Source of the DNA: Capsaspora owczarzaki ATCC 30864
Taxonomy: Eukaryota; Opisthokonta; Filasterea
DNA: 64,000 nucleotides
Direction of reading: 5' to 3'
NCBI RefSeq assembly: GCF_000151315.2
Contig: NW_011887294.1
Location: forward strand, 1,818,460 to 1,882,459
In this document: piece after piece, positions 9,596 through 19,912 of the stretch
Position numbering within the stretch: the first letter of the stretch is position 1
Layout: each line of letters begins with the position of its first letter
Position numbers and translations under genes: made by a program
Notes under the pieces: generated by a model
Databases searched by the model: none
Told to the model about the DNA's origin: nothing
Seen by the model: only the letters and a program-made list of their open reading frames with translations

Positions 9596-11503
9596 CTATT
9601 TGAGCGCCTCGATGGCTGCGCCAATGGACGTGACACGCTCCACGCGGGGCACTTTGGAGCGAGATCCGCGGGGAGTGGTAGTTCCGTTCGCGCTGCCGGT
9701 GCTCGTGTTGCTCACGTTGCTGGTGGCGCGCGTCATTCGCGTGGTGGAACTGGCGTTCAGCTGCGCGAGTTGCTCGCTGTTTAATTTCGCATGGCGGCGG
9801 CCATCAGCCTCGTCGTCTTCGTCGGGCTCGTGTCGGCGTTTGGCACTGCGGATGGCAGGACCGCGAACAGCTGGCGCTGCTGCTGCTGCCGTGGATTGTG
9901 CCGCTGTCAGCGCTGGCGCAGCGTCGAAGTCCCCGCGCAGATCGGCGAGACCGGTGAGAGAGTTCCGCTGGCTGCCAGGAGATCGCCGCCTCAACAGCGG
10001 GGCAGCCGATGATGACGCAGGATCGGGCAGATAGCTGGCGGGCTTGTTGTTGTTGCTTCGGGGCCGCGAGGGCTGCTGTTGTGCAGAAGAAGTGGTGCCT
10101 CCGATCGTAAATACTTCCGCGCCGCTCTTGCGGAGGAGCGCGCTTATCGGACTGGTCGGACTGCTAATATCGATCGGCGTCATGGCAGTTGCGGTGGAGC
10201 CGTGTCGGCTGCTTGAACGTGACGGGGTTCGAGGCAAGTCACCGGCAGCTTCCGGTGCGGCAGCTCTCGCGGGTGACGGGACTTTTTGTGGCGGAGGGTG
10301 GCTCGACTGGTACCTGGAGTGCGCTGACGACGATGAAGATGACAAGACCACGGCATCTGACTCGGACGGCTCCTTCTTGACGGTTGGTCGACTCGGTGCA
10401 GGAAGCGGCGCGGCTTGTTGGGCTGACTGTGCGTCGCTCTTCTTGGTTACGACAGACACCATTCTTGGTGCAGCAGGCCTCGAGGAGGTACCGCCCCCAC
10501 CGCTGCCACCATCAGCATCCATGTCCATTGCTTGCATTGCTTGGGGTTGATTGGAGCCGCTTGCTTGCTGCCTCCGCTTGTTCACATCCTTCAGCTCTTT
10601 CAGATCAACCGTCAGAGCTTGGACCTTTTCGCGCTGCTGTGCCTCTTGCTGCTGCGCAGCTTGAAGCGCTTTGGTTTGTGCTTCTAGCTGAGCAGCGAGG
10701 GCGCGTATCTCCTCCTTTTTGGCGTTGAGAACGGCGGCAAACTTGACGTACATGGCGCTTTCGGCAGAGCTCTGTCCCTCAATCACATCATCGAGCATGG
10801 CAACCGCCTCGGTTCGTTGCAGCGCCAGCTTGTCGCGCTCCTGGCGCAATGCACGACCTTGGTCCATGAGCTGTTGGCGGTCGGTGATGAGCGCGCGCAA
10901 GAAGGCTTTCAAGGACGATTCGGCTTTTCGACTAAAGGACGGGAGGCTGATGCCGCCGCGGAGAACAAGAAAGCCGTTGCTGCGGTCGTGCCACTGGAGG
11001 ACGAGCGCGTCGCTGTCGGAAGAGTCGGGAGTGGCACCAGTCGTCGATGTGAGTCCGAGCGAGGACGAGAGGGAGACGGACGCTCCCGATCCATCGGACG
11101 GGTCCGGAAAGGACTCTAACGAGGCTGAAAATGTGCCTGGAAGGAATATGTCTGGCTGCGATTGCTTGGCGGACGACCGGGGTGGGCGAGAGCTGGCGCT
11201 CGCTCGGCTGGTGGTGGAACCGGACGCGGACGCCGACGCCGACGATGCAATCTTAAACTCGTACGCATACTTGGCATCGTCTTGCTTGGCCAGCATCATG
11301 TTGGAGTCTTGAACAAAGTCGGGCAGGTCCTTGTCCGAAGGCGCGAGCGCGGCCACATCGACCGTCCGCTGCCACACGCGTGCGCCGTTGGTCACGGTGA
11401 ATGTGACAGACCGGATCTTGTGCTTGTCGAACGCCGAGTGGCTCGCGGCAGTCGTAGATTTGGCGCCAAGACCTGCTGAGATCGTGTTGCTCGCTTTGCC
11501 GCG

Positions 11504-11538
<35 letters not shown>

Positions 11539-11821
11539 GCTGCGACGCGGTCAGCACGCGCAGGTCGTCCAAATCGGACTCGTCGTCTCGTAGCTGCAGA
11601 CTGGCGCTGCTCGCCGCTGCAGAAGACCCGCTCGTCGTCGGATGGTGATGCTGATACTGATCGCCAGTGTCGTGCTCGCTCCAGCGGCACAGCAAGTAGT
11701 ACTCGGCCGTGTCCTGCACCCCGACGCGCTCGCCCTGCTTGGGTGACTCGCCCGTCTGCTTCTTGACGACGAATCGCTCGAACGTTGTCGCGTGTGCGTC
11801 GTTGACCAGCGTGCCCGACAT
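9596..11821 (-). CDS. XRCC4: XRCC4-like non-homologous end-joining factor
   Basis: Single exon of 741 residues from the ATG at 11821. The N-terminal third is a head domain split by Thr/Ser-rich inserts (YYLLCRWSEHD; VTFTVTNGARVWQRTVD; ALVLQWHDRSNGFLVLRGG). A long coiled coil follows, containing SAMYVKFAAVLNAKKEEIRA, which matches human XRCC4 DLYKRFILVLNEKKTKIRS, the helix that binds DNA ligase IV. The C-terminal half is Ser/Pro-rich and disordered, with basic patches (IRSAKRRHE) and a (S/T)-rich end. Known: XRCC4 homodimers stabilise ligase IV and bridge ends with XLF. It is over twice the human length (about 336) because of inserts in the head and a long tail. XLF and PAXX are alternatives, but the VLNxKKxxI motif favours XRCC4. 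Confidence 0.8.
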
Positions 11822-12875: not shown

Positions 12876-13443
12876 TTCAATGTGGATGCGATGTGGCTGG
12901 GACGATTGGTGATTGAGTGGAGATCAAAGCGTCCTGCATTGAAAAAGGCAGCATGAACGTGCAATGGAGGCACATTGACACTGAACAAGTCAAAAGTTGA
13001 AAAAACCAACAAAAAATACATTAAAAAATCACGAACGCATTCCCCACAGTTTTGTACGAATCTACTTCCGACGCAGCTGTTTTTTTCTCTCCTTCTCTCA
13101 CTTCTTGCCCCCCCCCACTCGGACGCGTCATCCATCGCACAGCCAGTACCGAGCGAGCGAGAGATAGAGAGATAGGAGAGCGTCGCCACGTGTGTCCTTG
13201 TGCTTATCCTTATCTCCCAAAAGGGCAATTAACGCATGTGTAACGCTCGTCCATGTGGTCCTCGCTGAGAAAACGCAAAAAAATACCAAAAAACAATATT
13301 ACATTTGCATTGACATTCACTTTCTATTTTGGAAACTACTGTTTTGCAACGTGTCAAAAAAGATATCAAGACCTTGCTCACACTCACATTTTTTTGGTTT
13401 TTGTTTCACTTTTTTGTTTTGTTTCACTTTTTTGCTCAGAATC
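11822..13443. other. Divergent intergenic region between XRCC4-like and FOLR-Kelch genes
   Basis: About 1.6 kb between divergent starts. It holds CTTCC-type pyrimidine repeats near 12041-12072, an A run at about 12559-12580, T runs near 12600-12650 and a 35-base A run at 12836-12870. No exon seen on either strand. Promoters for both genes presumably lie here, but I cannot point to a specific element. Confidence 0.5.
12836..12870. repeat. Poly(A) tract of 35 bases
   Basis: Uninterrupted A run on +, one of the longest homopolymers in the window. Confidence 0.95.
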
Positions 13444-16400
13444 ATGCCTTCCCGCCAGCTCACCGCCGCTGTGGCCGTGCTGGTGGTGCTTGCCACCGCT
13501 GCTTCGACGGCGTTTGGCGACGCTCCCATCTCCTTCAAGGACCCCTACGAAACGATCATCACCGACTATGGCCAATCGTGCATCAGCCACCCGAGCCATG
13601 CCCGCCACGGCAAGCCCACCGTCAAGGACCTCTCTAGCCCCGAAACCACGCTCGAGTTTTGCACGCCGTGGGCTGGCAACGGCTGCTGCCGCCCCGAGCT
13701 CACCCGCTTGATCAACTCTGTCCCGGACTATGACGCCGTGTACGACTTTAACTGGGCTGTGTGCGGCGAGCTTTCTGCCGACTGCGCGACCTACATGAAG
13801 CACGAGGCGTGCTTTGTCGAGTGCTCCCCGTACCTGACTCCGTTCGAGGATCGCTCGTTCGGCTACTACTTTTCGTCCGTCCCCGTGTGCTCGAGCTGGG
13901 CTGATCGCTGGTTTGACGCGTGCCGCAACGACAAGACCTGCGTCGACAACTGGTACGACGACAACGCCTGGGATTACACGCCTGACGGCTGGAACATTTG
14001 CAAGCCGGACTCGCAGTGCACCACCTACGCAGACCGCTTTGGCAGCCCCAAGAAGATGCTCGAGACCCTTTGGGGCATTTCCTTCACCTACTCGACCGAC
14101 GAATCCCGCTGCTACATGCCATTCTTCAGCGGCGTCCCCAACGAAGCCCCTTACGTGAAGGCGCTCTTGGACAAGATCCAGGTGGAAGACCCGTCTGTGA
14201 TTGGCACCAAGGTCAAGGCCGTCGACTCGACCGAAGAGTCCAAGCTGCCCAAGGCCGTCGACTTCCTCCCCATCGATGCCCCGTCGATTGGCGCCAAGAC
14301 CCAGACCCCGGAGCCTGGCCTTGCCGGCTACACACGCATTGTCGTCGATGACATTGGCCTGACGTACGCCCTCGACCAGATTACTGGTGCGATTGACATC
14401 TACCCCATCGACCGCAGTCTCGGTGTCCTGACGCACATCACCTTCGCTTCCACCGATTCGGCTGCTCTCGACATGGATCTGATGGAGGGAGTGCTTGCAG
14501 TCACCACGGTTCCTCGCTCGTCGCTGGCCACCTGGAAGGAGGATGCTGCCCAGCCTGGCTCGCTTGTCTTTATTGACATTGCTAACGGCTTTGCTGTTCT
14601 CTCGACGGTGCAAGTCGGTGCCTACCCCGTCAAGGTCCTGTTCACCCCCAACGGCGAGCACGTCGTCGTGGCCAACCAAGGTCCCCGTGTCAGCTCCACC
14701 CTCGACCCCGATGGCAGTGTCACCCTTGTCAGCGTTCGCCCGCAGCGCAACTACACTGTCGGTATTATTGGTCCCTACGTTCCGCCAAACTTGCTGGACT
14801 GTGCCGCTGCCGTCCAGCAGAGCACCCACGTCCGCACCGCTGTCTGGAACAACGAGACTGCCGTCGACCCCCGTGTTGCGCAGTTTGCCAACTTTTCTGC
14901 CGGTATGCGCGACATTGAACCCATCTGGCTCTCGGTTGCCATCGATTCCGCGAACGTCTACGTGTCTCTGCAGGCGCAGAACGCCTTTGGTGTCATCTCC
15001 ATTCCTTCGGGAACCTGGACGCGCGTCGTTGGCTGGGGCTTTAAGGACCACCAGGAGCCCGACATGGGCCTCGATGCCTCCAGCTCTGACGGCATCAACG
15101 TCAAGAACCAGCATCTGTTTGGTCTGTACCAGCCTCGCGTTGTTGAGGTCTTTTACGCCGACGGCATTCCCCACCTCATCACCGCCAACCAGGGTGACGC
15201 CACCCGCAACGCTGTGGACATTTCCACCATCACCATCGACAACCCCGACTTTTGGAGCAACCCTGACGGCTTCAAGGCCTCGGTCGCTGGCCTGAAGGTC
15301 CACGACACGCTCGGCGTTGAGAATGGCAACCACGAGTTTATCTACACGTTCGGTGGTCGCTCCGTCTCCATCTGGGAGATGGACGGCTCGCTTCGCTTTG
15401 ATTCTGGTGACACCTTTGAGCGTATTCTTGCCTGGATCCAGCCTCGCTGGTTTAACGCGGTTGATGGCGCCAGTGGCTTTGATCAGGCCTCGTCCACCAC
15501 TGGCTGCGCCCCCAGCGCCGTCACGCTCGGCCCGATTGGCGATCACCTCTACGCCTTTATCGGTTTTGACAACTGCAACGGCATTGTCGTCTTTGACGTG
15601 ACCCTCCCCCACGACTCGCACTTTGTTCGCTACCTGCCCATCGAGGACATTTCTCACGTCACCGGCCTGTCCTTCTTCCCGTCTGTCGCCCCCACCTTTG
15701 ACACCGCCAAGCTCTACGTCACTGCCTCTTCTGGCACCACCGCGACCGTGCGTGTGTACCAGGTCGTCCCCACTCTCGACCAGGGCCGCTTGACCGTCCC
15801 CGTCCACGAGTCGTGGTCGATGGCCCAGCCGCTGCCCACTGCCCGCTCGGATTTTACTGCCAGCACTGTCGGCAAGCGCGTCTTTGTCACTGGTGGCTGC
15901 ATCACGGACAACGTCGTCACCCCTTACGGCGTCGACCAGTGCAACCAGGTGGCTGGCGATGTCAACATTTACGACCCGGAGACCAACGCTTGGGTTGTTC
16001 CCGGTGGTGTCATGATTACTCCGCGTACTCGCCACGCCGCTGCTGTCTGGCGCGAGCGTCTGTACGTTTTCGGCGGTCGCCCTGCTGGCGACGATTATGG
16101 CCAGGCATTCTCTTCGGCCGAGTTTTACGACTTTGAGCTGGACGGATGGCGCGCCATTGCTCCTCTGCCCGTCGCCCTCAGTGATGCTGCTGCCGTCGAG
16201 CTCTTGGACAAGATTTACGTGTTTGGCGGCTACGACTCGTTCTACACTGGCTCGCTCAACCGCACTTTTGTTTACGATCCGATGGCCGACACCTGGTCTG
16301 AGCTCGTGAACGCTCCGCTCAACGGCGCGTTCGGCCGTGGTGACCACTCTGCCGCTGTCATTGACGGCGTCATTTACTGCTTTGGTGGCTTTAGCCAGGC

Positions 16401-17256
16401 TCTGGGCGCCGATTGGGGCACCACTGAGGCGCTTGCCACGATGGAGGCCTTCGATCCTTTTGTCGGCCACTGGACTCCCCGTGCCTCGATGAACCTCGCT
16501 CGCGGCGATGCCGGTATTGCCGTTGTCGACGACATGCTCTACGTCATGGGTGGCGAGGGCAAGGATGGCTCTGACCCTTACACTTGGAAGTACATTGCGC
16601 GCAACGAGCTCGAGCGCTACGACCCTGCCCGCGACCTGTGGATCACGCTCGCCCCCGTCCCGTCGTCGCGCCTGCGCTGCGCTGCCGCCTCCGTCGGCGA
16701 GTTTACCTATCTGTTTGGTGGCCACAACCAGCAGAAGGAAATCCTCTACCTCGTCGAAAAGTTCAACGGTGACATCATTTTCGGTCTTGAAGAGTACTTT
16801 GAGCACATTCAGATCCGCGCTTCCAGCCTCCACAACTATGTCGTGTCTGCCACCTCTCGCGAGTCTCGCTGGGTTGCCAACGAGGCCTACACCAACGACA
16901 TGACCACCGTCAACACCCAGCTGGCCTCTGTGCAGACCACCTCGGCTGCCAACAACCTGACCATCACGACGCTCCAGGCCGAGATTGCTGCGCTCCAGGC
17001 ACAGTTGGTGGTCCTTACGCACTCCCTCAACGCTGCGACTGCCCAGGTTGCTCAGCTTCAATCGTATGTCGATTCTGGCAACGTTGGCGCTGACAGCAAC
17101 GCCAAGGAGATTGCCGTCGCTGCCCTTGTTCTGGTTGTGCTCCTCATCGTTGCGCTCATCGTTGTTGCCGTCAAGACCTGGGCTGTTCCTGCCCGTCGTC
17201 GCGCCAACAGCCAGCGTGGCCCTGTCAAGCTGGAGGACCTCAGCGACCGCATTTAA
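13444..17256 (+). CDS. Type I membrane protein: folate-receptor-like, choice-of-anchor-I-like and Kelch domains
   Basis: Single exon of 1270 residues starting at the ATG at 13444. Residues 1-23 form a signal peptide. Residues about 40-190 are Cys-rich with the folate receptor/riboflavin-binding pattern (GCCRPELTRLI, NWAVCGELSADC, CFVECSPYL, VPVCSSWADRWFDAC, KTCVDNWY). Residues about 290-775 resemble the choice-of-anchor-I propeller (VVVANQGPR, ITANQGDATRNAVD, FGGRSVSIWEMDGSLRFDSG). About 790-1115 hold Kelch repeats (LYVFGGRPAGDD, IYVFGGYDS, IYCFGGFSQ, LYVMGGEGKD, TYLFGGHNQQ). A coiled coil (1150-1210) and a transmembrane helix (about 1222-1246) with a short basic tail end the protein. It should display on the surface or in an endomembrane lumen. 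Ligand and function are unknown. Third-position C/G use is strong and suggests high expression. Confidence 0.85.
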   Translation: MPSRQLTAAVAVLVVLATAASTAFGDAPISFKDPYETIITDYGQSCISHPSHARHGKPTVKDLSSPETTLEFCTPWAGNGCCRPELTRLINSVPDYDAVYDFNWAVCGELSADCATYMKHEACFVECSPYLTPFEDRSFGYYFSSVPVCSSWADRWFDACRNDKTCVDNWYDDNAWDYTPDGWNICKPDSQCTTYADRFGSPKKMLETLWGISFTYSTDESRCYMPFFSGVPNEAPYVKALLDKIQVEDPSVIGTKVKAVDSTEESKLPKAVDFLPIDAPSIGAKTQTPEPGLAGYTRIVVDDIGLTYALDQITGAIDIYPIDRSLGVLTHITFASTDSAALDMDLMEGVLAVTTVPRSSLATWKEDAAQPGSLVFIDIANGFAVLSTVQVGAYPVKVLFTPNGEHVVVANQGPRVSSTLDPDGSVTLVSVRPQRNYTVGIIGPYVPPNLLDCAAAVQQSTHVRTAVWNNETAVDPRVAQFANFSAGMRDIEPIWLSVAIDSANVYVSLQAQNAFGVISIPSGTWTRVVGWGFKDHQEPDMGLDASSSDGINVKNQHLFGLYQPRVVEVFYADGIPHLITANQGDATRNAVDISTITIDNPDFWSNPDGFKASVAGLKVHDTLGVENGNHEFIYTFGGRSVSIWEMDGSLRFDSGDTFERILAWIQPRWFNAVDGASGFDQASSTTGCAPSAVTLGPIGDHLYAFIGFDNCNGIVVFDVTLPHDSHFVRYLPIEDISHVTGLSFFPSVAPTFDTAKLYVTASSGTTATVRVYQVVPTLDQGRLTVPVHESWSMAQPLPTARSDFTASTVGKRVFVTGGCITDNVVTPYGVDQCNQVAGDVNIYDPETNAWVVPGGVMITPRTRHAAAVWRERLYVFGGRPAGDDYGQAFSSAEFYDFELDGWRAIAPLPVALSDAAAVELLDKIYVFGGYDSFYTGSLNRTFVYDPMADTWSELVNAPLNGAFGRGDHSAAVIDGVIYCFGGFSQALGADWGTTEALATMEAFDPFVGHWTPRASMNLARGDAGIAVVDDMLYVMGGEGKDGSDPYTWKYIARNELERYDPARDLWITLAPVPSSRLRCAAASVGEFTYLFGGHNQQKEILYLVEKFNGDIIFGLEEYFEHIQIRASSLHNYVVSATSRESRWVANEAYTNDMTTVNTQLASVQTTSAANNLTITTLQAEIAALQAQLVVLTHSLNAATAQVAQLQSYVDSGNVGADSNAKEIAVAALVLVVLLIVALIVVAVKTWAVPARRRANSQRGPVKLEDLSDRI

Positions 17257-18163
17257 AACCAGTCTAGGCGCCGCTCTTTCTCCTTTTTTTTTCTCCTCTT
17301 CCCTTGCTCTTGTGTCTTGTCCTTTGTCATTTCGAACCCTTCCTTTTCACCTTTTCTCCTTTTCACCTCTTTCTATTTGTACTTTTTTTTCTGCCGTCTT
17401 TTTTGGCCGTCGAGCTTGTTTCTCTCTGGCTCCAGACGTGTGCTGCGTTTCCAACGTCGCATGTGTTTGGACTGTCGGGACTTCTCGTGTCTGCCTAACC
17501 CCTCCAGGACCGCCGGGGTGCTAAGTATCATTTGAACTTTCGCACTTTTGCTCCAACGCACAAGATGTTCATCTTTTTGTTTGTTTGTTTCTGCATCCTG
17601 TTTCGCTGCCCCACTCAATGCGGATGTCTTCCAACGAGGACTGTGATTTTCTGGCATCGGGCATTCCACCTTGCTCGGAGCTGTCTTGAGATTTTTGCAG
17701 AGCTGGCCTCATCGGTCTGCTCGAATTCTCTTGATGGCTCTCTGCATGCTTGTGGGTGTTCTCGTTGCTGGTTCTTCTTGTTCTTGTTTGGCTGCTGGCT
17801 GCTGCCCCCCCCCCCTCAAAAAGTTGTTGTATCTTGTCTTTTGCGCGATTGTGTTGATTCTGGCTTGGCTGAGATCATACCCGTGAACCTGCCCGGATAA
17901 TACCGGGAAGGAAGCGTCCTGGAACCCCATTTTTCTTCTTTCTTGATGTATGCCTCTTTGTTCGAAATGAAATTGTGTATATGACTTGTTTGGTGCAAAA
18001 GTTGATTGAGCATTTTTTTGGTTTTATTGTGGGCAATGTCTTGGTAGAGTGTGTGTGTGTGTGCACAGGCGGTTTGACATGAATGGGGGCATAGCTTGAT
18101 CGAGCCTGTTTCGTCTTTTGCTCAGTCTGCATCGTGGTTGGATTTGTTTGCTGAGTGTTCTTG
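17257..18163. other. Gap between FOLR-Kelch and JMJD4 genes
   Basis: About 900 bases of pyrimidine-rich sequence, presumably the 3' UTR of the upstream gene and the promoter/5' UTR of JMJD4, both on +. No exon recognised. Confidence 0.5.
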
Positions 18164-19912
18164 ATGTCTGAGCCAATTCAACTCCTTGCAAGCTCAACCG
18201 ACCTGTCCTACGATGACTTTGTCGCCCAGTTCATGGCGCCAAACCGGCCTGTCGTGCTCCCAGAAAGCGCCATCCGACACTGGCGCGCACGTCACGAATG
18301 GACGACCGATGCGGGTGCAACGACCGGGAGCGATGCAGTTGTCGTGCGCAACATTGACATTGACCGCATCGAGGCGCTGTTTGGCCAAGCTGTGGCTCCG
18401 ATTTCAGACTGCGATGTCACTCAGACGTATGGAATGGCTGGATTGGTCGGGACGGGTCGCAGTGATGATGGGCAACCGCTGCTCAAGGAAGTGACCATCG
18501 CCAAGTACTGCGATTACCTGCGTCGACGAAGACAGCATGTCCAACGACAATCGAGGAGCACTGGAACGAGTGTCGAGTCTCGAGACGGGTCTATTGGGAA
18601 GCCTGGGAAGCCTGGTGATCACGATGGCACGATCGTTTCGGATCCTCTTCCTGCCGACCGCTGCATCTACTTGAAGGACTGGCACATGACCCGAGACTTC
18701 CCTGGCTACAATGCCTACGAGTTGCCAGTGTACTTTTCTGATGACTGGCTCAACGGGTACTGGGACGAGTGCGGCAGTCTCGATCAAAACCGGCGTGACG
18801 ACTTTCGCTTTTGCTACATTGGCCCAGCAGGCAGCTGGACGCCCGTTCATTTTGACGTAATGAGGTACGGGCGACGCGAGTTGTGGGTTGGCTGATGCGC
18901 GTATGTGGGAGCTACGCTGTCATCTGAATGTAACTGTGTTTGACTGCTGCAGCTCGTTCAGCTGGTCTGCGAATATCTGCGGCCGCAAGAAATGGATCTT
19001 CTTCCCGCCCGAGGCCCGAGAAATGCTCACCGATGCCGCTGGAGAGCTGCTCAGCGACGTGCGAAGTGTGGACGAAACAAGGTTTCCAAACTTCCGCAAT
19101 GCACCGCGGATCGAACTGTTTCAAGAAGAGGGACAGTTGGTGTTTGTTCCAAGTCAGTGGTATCACCAGGTTATCAATCTGGTAAGCAGCAAGACACCGC
19201 AGAGAAGATAGAGAGAGATGGAGGACGATGTGCTGCTCACCAGCTCCGTCTCCCTTATCTTGGTTTTCGTTTTTTTGTTTGTTGGGTTTTTTTGTTTTTT
19301 GTTTGTTTGTTTGTTTGTTTGTTTGTTTGTCTGTTTGTTTTTGTGCCTCAGACCGACGTCATATCAATCAACCACAACTGGGCCAATGGATGCAACATTT
19401 TGGGAATGTGGCAGCTCGCAAAAGAAGACGCACAGCTTGTTGCTACTGATCTTTCGCTCGAATCGGCATCGCTGGATGAAATCTCCACCAGCAAACAACA
19501 TGGCGCGGTTGCAGCAGTACGCTCACCGGCAGCGCCAGCAGCAATGTTTGGCCTGATGGCAGCTACTGCAGAGCAGGCTATGACTGTTCAAGACCTGCTT
19601 CGAGCGAACGGATCGCTTGACTTTCGCGCAATGCACGACTTGTGCATGGTACAAGTTCGAAAAATCCAACAACGCAGCCACCAACTAGCTCTGTTGGCTC
19701 CTTCGGCAGTCACCGCCGAGGTTTGTGCTGCGCGAAATCGGCACGTTTCCGACCTCAAGACGATTCGGCAGATCTTGACCGACATTTCTCGTTCGACATT
19801 TTATCGAGAGTGTCGAGATGCGTGGCCCGCCTCCATCGATATCGAGCAAGAGCTATCTGAACAAGAAACATTACAAAGACGGCTGACCGAGTTATTCGAA
19901 AGTTTCAAGTAG
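18164..19912 (+). CDS. JMJD4: JmjC-domain 2-oxoglutarate oxygenase, JMJD4 type
   Basis: Three exons (18164-18864, 18953-19181, 19352-19912) give 496 residues. Motifs in order: YLKDWHMTRDFP, LPVYFSDDWLNGYWDE, FCYIGPAGSWTPVHFDV with the iron ligands H-x-D, SFSWSANICGRKKWIFFPP with the 2OG-binding Lys region, FVPSQWYHQVINL, and ISINHNWANGCN with the distal His. These track human JMJD4 closely. Known: JMJD4 hydroxylates a lysine of the release factor eRF1 and promotes translation termination. The C-terminal helical part is longer than in human. The second intron is dominated by a GTTT tetranucleotide repeat. The stop faces the BMT5-like stop 124 bases away. The start uses the first in-frame ATG; there is a GTG nine bases earlier. 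Confidence 0.94.
19301..19340 (+). repeat. GTTT tetranucleotide repeat in JMJD4 intron 2
   Basis: About nine GTTT units, one with a T-to-C change, ending just before the acceptor of exon 3; it may serve as the polypyrimidine tract. Confidence 0.9.

Follow-up and report, generated by a model that had tools for sequence, protein, structure and literature searches.

A predicted Capsaspora surface protein joining a folate-receptor-like head, a choice_anch_I propeller with altered strand-end acids and Kelch repeats

Folate receptors are glycosylphosphatidylinositol (GPI)-anchored and some proteins related to them are freely secreted; attractin is a surface protein, and MSP130, a presumed member of the choice_anch_I family, is reportedly lipid-anchored in the sea urchin. 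Juno is a vitamin-receptor fold turned recognition receptor, which its authors regard as having arisen from folate receptors as a novelty of mammals (PMC4751342). HHIP combines a pocket-type cysteine-rich domain (CRD), a six-bladed propeller and EGF repeats, its CRD being grouped by the authors with NPC1, RFBP and the folate receptors (PMC8660895); MSP130 is presented as a biomineralisation protein of the cell surface that has relatives in bacteria (PMC4536745). Here we describe a gene of Capsaspora owczarzaki ATCC 30864 that lies in a 64,000-nucleotide stretch of contig NW_011887294.1 (positions 1,818,460 to 1,882,459, forward strand; "the window", from whose first base positions are counted) and encodes a folate/riboflavin-receptor-like head, two propellers and a membrane anchor. 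The protein consists of known parts in a plausibly unusual arrangement, and the acids missing from the strand ends of its choice_anch_I propeller add most to what is known.

Gene, domains and topology

The gene and the parts of its product are as follows:

13444-17256, plus strand: coding frame of 1,270 amino acids, a single open frame read in the sequence
13444-13518, plus strand: signal peptide, residues ~1-25 (hydropathy peak at residues 5-24)
13579-14112, plus strand: folate/riboflavin-receptor-like CRD with 14 Cys, residues 46-223 (Pfam, PDB matches, residue mapping)
14320-15813, plus strand: choice_anch_I propeller, residues ~293-790 (profile matches, structure model)
14335-15735, plus strand: span of the 11 altered carboxylate positions in this propeller (80-relative alignment)
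15832-16779, plus strand: Kelch propeller with six Kelch-type GG doublets, residues ~797-1112 (Pfam matches, sequence reading)
16819-17067, plus strand: helical, perhaps coiled-coil stalk, residues 1126-1208 (ectodomain model)
17107-17175, plus strand: transmembrane helix, residues 1222-1244 (19-residue hydropathy up to 3.64)
17176-17253, plus strand: mostly polar tail of 26 residues (motif search)

The sequence-only reading had named the signal peptide, the three domains, the coiled coil and the transmembrane helix, and its domain assignment proved correct throughout. Searching the whole protein against Pfam (18 families listed to E 1) placed Folate_rec (PF03024) on residues 56-223 (E 9.3e-32; 110.7 bits, cut-off 29.8), choice_anch_I (PF22494) on residues 370-738 (E 2.4e-33; 116.1 bits, cut-off 32) and Kelch_1 on five stretches (E 3.1e-39; 132.5 bits, cut-off 20.1), all three above their cut-offs; the NCBIfam model of choice_anch_I (NF038117) gave E 1.1e-76, yet its 258.5 bits fall below the cut-off of 300. 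The Kelch region was matched in addition by the Pfam KLHDC2/KLHL20 propeller model (E 6.8e-29) and the attractin/LZTR1 propeller model (PF24981; E 1.3e-23, 84.1 bits, cut-off 50), and in the PDB the closest matches to the protein as a whole were KEAP1/KLHL proteins and the SAKe6 set, which we take to be designed six-bladed Kelch propellers. Six Kelch-type GG doublets can be read, not counting a seventh GG that lies within PGGV, and the repeats would suffice for a six-bladed propeller. Matches in PHROGs were confined to the propeller regions.

The predicted signal peptide and transmembrane helix are borne out by hydropathy, and five N-glycosylation sequons are all located on the predicted outer face. 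Structure prediction, also proposed in the sequence-only reading, succeeded in part: a model of the whole ectodomain (28 relatives) was usable for the choice_anch_I propeller and the stalk, and in the latter two helices (residues 1126-1170 and 1174-1208; predicted local distance difference test score, pLDDT, 62-78 for ~1145-1204 and lower at either end) perhaps form a coiled coil. The tail was searched for endocytic motifs only, and no YxxPhi, di-leucine or NPxY motif was found in its 26 residues.

The coding part, as read, is a single uninterrupted exon of 1,270 codons with no internal stop. The frame is open from 13192 (closest upstream in-frame stop at 13165), the ATG of the signal peptide is at 13444 and the stop codon at 17254-17256; in 200 single-base shuffles of 13001-17500, read in six frames, no stop-free run exceeded 365 codons (mean of the longest runs 187). 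The 5' leader may contain an intron, because a pyrimidine-rich tract upstream of the ATG closes with CAG at 13437-13439, four bases 5' of the start. That two neighbouring genes or an assembly join had been read as a single gene is extremely improbable: the GC content at third codon positions, which is 0.84 over codons 1-250, 0.875 over codons 251-290 and lower, at 0.72-0.75, thereafter, speaks against compositional uniformity, but the frame is unbroken throughout, relative synonymous codon usage correlates at 0.73-0.92 among four segments of the gene, and the secretory N-terminus and sole C-terminal transmembrane helix make up one coherent surface protein. Two genes or an artefact were rejected on the continuous frame and the shared codon usage. 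Neither outcome that would have refuted the sequence-only reading was observed, since the N-terminal Cys-rich domain has a strong profile match and nothing points to a pair of genes. An antisense open reading frame (ORF) of 1,225 amino acids (13384-17061, minus strand) spans nearly the whole gene; it matches no Pfam family to E 0.1, was judged mechanical and was rejected as a gene.

In the genome (27,456,641 bases, 29 contigs) the Folate_rec and choice_anch_I profiles each had one match. With the whole protein as query, no second copy was found in the genome, the sole match being a weak one in the Kelch region (E 3.8e-5). In viral contigs, peptide patterns gave no match for the head and two stretches for the choice_anch_I propeller, neither of which codes for a relative; in plasmids, the head had no match to E 0.01, and none of the 74 records matched by the Kelch part covered 80% of the query. 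The architecture was not described in the titles and abstract openings surveyed, which cover the literature partially.

Strand-end positions of the choice_anch_I propeller

Relatives of the propeller were selected with the help of two peptide patterns and for their similarity to the Capsaspora protein; at least 594 stretches matched, at least 389 prokaryotic relatives were confirmed, and 80 of these were aligned and all used (loci L012-L091). Identity to the closest prokaryotic relatives reaches ~35% at best over the whole propeller length and 37% in the trimmed alignment. At the 110 columns conserved to at least 85%, the Capsaspora protein keeps Gly at 16/18, Pro at 8/11, aromatic residues at 8/13, aliphatic residues at 11/20 and N/Q/S/T at 9/15, with 9/24 acidic residues. 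At columns conserved to at least 98.5%, five of 18 acids are kept versus 22 of 26 other residues (Fisher p 3e-4), and at those conserved to at least 95% acid retention is 8/21 (0.38), whereas none of the 80 relatives, each left out once, falls below 0.90.

Placed on a model of the propeller (45 of the 80 relatives in its alignment; mean pLDDT 81.4), 11 of the conserved acids follow a regular pattern and form two groups. The first occupies the second residue of a strand (residues 298, 396, 494, 565, 691 and 740; in Capsaspora R, V, I, R, S and T) and the second the first or second residue past a strand (412, 511, 583, 709 and 764; Q, A, Q, D and G). All 80 prokaryotic relatives have E or D at each of these 11 positions, that is, an acid at strand starts, often preceded by Pro, and an acid past the strand. 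In Capsaspora none of the 11 is identical (one is an E-to-D change), nine of the 13 other acidic columns are kept, and the Pro preceding four first-group positions is retained (395, 493, 564 and 690). By the definition of the prokaryotic form made in this analysis, namely the 11 invariant strand-end acids, the Capsaspora propeller falls outside it. Plasmid relatives found without the patterns (17 records, seven aligned) agree at nine of the 11 positions, gaps apart, with one haloarchaeal row deviating at 412 and 511.

The 11 acids probably mark a metal or catalytic site of the choice_anch_I family, and the Capsaspora propeller has probably been reduced to a scaffold without it; the lost site would have lain at one propeller face and was most likely a metal site. 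Fold searches with the propeller model returned many propellers at near-equal Z, and at rank 12 in Foldseek a Sphingobium phosphotriesterase (5hrm; E 3.5e-9, 10% identity), an enzyme of a type that presumably binds metal via Glu in its channel. The metal reading therefore serves as a lead only. The strand-end carboxylates in 80/80 relatives suggest a testable role for choice_anch_I, metal binding at the propeller face, and the Capsaspora protein offers a natural version without these acids.

Several points count against a specific loss of a site. The weak point of the acid count is the selection of the 80 relatives by pattern and similarity; the strand-end regularity was seen post hoc, and the rings were deduced from strand positions, not from coordinates. 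At columns conserved to at least 85% the acid effect is weak (9/24 acids versus 55/86 others, p 0.03), and conserved basic residues are lost as frequently as acidic ones (3/9 kept), so that general divergence, or change of charged residues at large, accounts for part of the acid loss. In the plasmid alignment every row having a letter at 740 and 764 has another one (a shift or a disagreement), and the count is unsupported there. A propeller without the strand-end acids could, moreover, yet be an enzyme of another kind.

In the tree, the Capsaspora propeller sits on an end branch of 3.73 (median 0.35) and represents a highly divergent lineage. No donor or sister group was supported, cyanobacteria being nearest by path only with bootstrap unsettled; donor assignment by the tree was rejected, and horizontal transfer is neither shown nor excluded by it.

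The head, vitamin metabolism and candidate functions

Among PDB structures, the head matched chicken riboflavin-binding protein (3.5e-24), folate receptor beta (1.2e-22), folate receptor alpha (2.8e-20) and Juno (1.9e-16), and it is identical at 58 of 169 aligned positions to folate receptor alpha and at 53 of 159 to riboflavin-binding protein. Thirteen of 15 aligned Cys of folate receptor alpha are kept; the absent two, 139 and 189, which we take to be disulfide partners, are missing together. The head retains Y82, F84, W156, W160, W193 and S196 of folate receptor alpha, and is changed at D103 (to E), R125 (G), R128 (Y), Y107 (V), W124 (F), W162 (Y), G159 (A) and N161 (D), the alignment being somewhat uncertain in the loop around 107, 125 and 128. 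The protein also lacks the GPI anchor of true folate receptors, to judge from hydropathy, since the hydrophobic helix is followed by 26 mostly polar residues. The folate pocket is formed by D103, R128, F84 and G159-W162 (PMC4751342), and of these residues only F84 and W160 are kept. In Juno, folate binding was lost with D103A among further changes (PMC4751342). Because several pocket aromatics are kept but the anchoring residues altered, and with this precedent, an aromatic-lined pocket in the head is probable and genuine folate binding doubtful.

The sequence-only reading had suggested a nutrient or adhesion receptor. Its nutrient half is weakened, because families for folate and riboflavin synthesis are present in the genome and the tail is without standard endocytic motifs; the adhesion half appears the better one. 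For riboflavin synthesis the lumazine synthase family matched, and for folate synthesis HPPK, with a DHPS-type Pterin_bind match adjoining it. The latter two are direct neighbours on the same strand (contig C1:308279-309818, minus strand), as in a fused folate-synthesis gene.

It is accordingly unlikely that the protein is an uptake receptor that captures folate or riboflavin and is then internalised: the closest solved structures to its head are indeed riboflavin-binding protein and the folate receptors, but the genome has both sets of synthesis families and no match for the folate carrier SLC19, the tail has none of the three motifs and the folate-anchoring residues are altered. The absence of a family match is weak evidence here, as the genome was searched for these families exon by exon.

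A small-molecule sensor, in which the head binds a bacterial or host pterin, folate or flavin and thereby gates adhesion or feeding, is conceivable though not probable. Several pocket aromatics are retained and the change of D103 to E is conservative, and such a sensor would serve an end similar to that of folate sensing in Dictyostelium, which is GPCR (G-protein-coupled receptor)-based; Dictyostelium uses folate as a cue for bacteria (PMC9998073). Against this stand the loss of Arg 125, Arg 128 and Tyr 107, in the loop of somewhat uncertain alignment, and the tail, in which nothing seen favours signalling, endocytic motifs being the only ones sought.

A protein of HHIP type that traps a morphogen or lipid, its CRD gripping the lipid and its propeller the protein part of the ligand, would account for the same order of CRD and propeller and for the pocket-type CRD, as in HHIP-N. 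We consider it very unlikely: the 18 Pfam families include neither EGF repeats nor a propeller of GSDH type, the type to which we assume that of HHIP to belong, none of the 12 PDB structures that the head matches to E 10 is HHIP, and the anchor is here a transmembrane helix. An NPC1_N profile search gave no match anywhere and carries no weight. Four GSDH-type propeller fragments were observed elsewhere in the genome (C9:95159-95662, C9:105028-105474, C13:69513-70360; E 1.9e-6 to 0.0065, two above cut-off).

We favour, with about even confidence, a single-pass type I cell-surface receptor for recognition or adhesion, a reading in keeping with the domain composition, the topology and the lost site residues. 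In such a receptor the stalk would pair or cluster the ectodomains, and the two propellers would serve as rigid platforms that bind proteins or glycans on another cell, matrix or prey. The head, with its probable aromatic-lined pocket, may bind a flat pterin- or flavin-like ring ligand or, like Juno, a partner protein; ring compounds, lipids and partner proteins may all be candidate ligands of the pocket. As the tail is short and without the three endocytic motifs, the protein would act in adhesion or as a co-receptor via membrane partners.

Further points tell against this receptor. Its signal peptide and transmembrane helix were called from Kyte-Doolittle hydropathy only; the ectodomain model is poor for the head and the Kelch part (pLDDT mostly <50), both of which rest on sequence; the riboflavin transporter family SLC52 gave five weak matches, below cut-off; and genes for vitamin synthesis do not exclude scavenging.

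A Folate_rec member on the surface protein of a unicellular organism would make it possible to ask which arose first, recognition or vitamin binding. We tentatively put forward, as a rather improbable scenario, that a pre-animal lineage captured a propeller of prokaryote type, stripped its double ring of carboxylates linked to metal or catalysis, and combined it with the vitamin-pocket head and the Kelch propeller in a ligand-gated adhesion receptor. If true, the folate/riboflavin-receptor fold would have served in cell recognition before it took up vitamin carriage or, in animals, Juno's role in sperm-egg contact.

Of the neighbouring ORFs in the window, one of 741 amino acids (9596-11821, minus strand) matches the XRCC4 coiled coil just below the cut-off of 27 (9.9e-6; 26 bits) and possibly encodes an XRCC4-like repair protein. 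Another (18155-18895, plus strand) has a weak Cupin_8 match (E 0.006, below cut-off) and may be the 5' portion of a gene for a JmjC-like hydroxylase that continues at ~18888-19211.

Comparison with known proteins

With prokaryotic choice_anch_I proteins the Capsaspora protein shares the propeller over its full length and most Gly and Pro columns; it differs in the strand-end acids (0/11), the very long branch and the fusion into a eukaryotic surface protein. To MSP130 it is likened by description, not by sequence, as a cell-surface protein with bacterial relatives, and differs from it in the lipid anchor of the sea urchin protein.

Folate receptors, riboflavin-binding protein and Juno have in common with it the Folate_rec head, the Cys framework and several pocket aromatics; they are GPI-anchored or freely secreted, whereas the protein here has a transmembrane helix and, in addition, two propellers. 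From folate receptors proper it is further set apart by E in place of D103, V in place of Y107, the loss of R125 and R128 and the absence of Cys 139 and 189.

Attractin-type proteins likewise carry a Kelch propeller outside the cell, the part recognised here by PF24981, but no CUB, EGF or PSI domain is among the Pfam families of the Capsaspora protein to E 1, and a CRD and choice_anch_I are found instead. The nearest known logic is that of HHIP, which is secreted and in which a pocket-type CRD at the N-terminus precedes a propeller (PMC8660895); the Capsaspora protein is without a GSDH or EGF match, adds a second propeller and a transmembrane anchor, and by architecture is not HHIP. By analogy, extracellular Kelch repeats have their precedent in attractin, and the joining of a CRD to a propeller has its precedent in HHIP.

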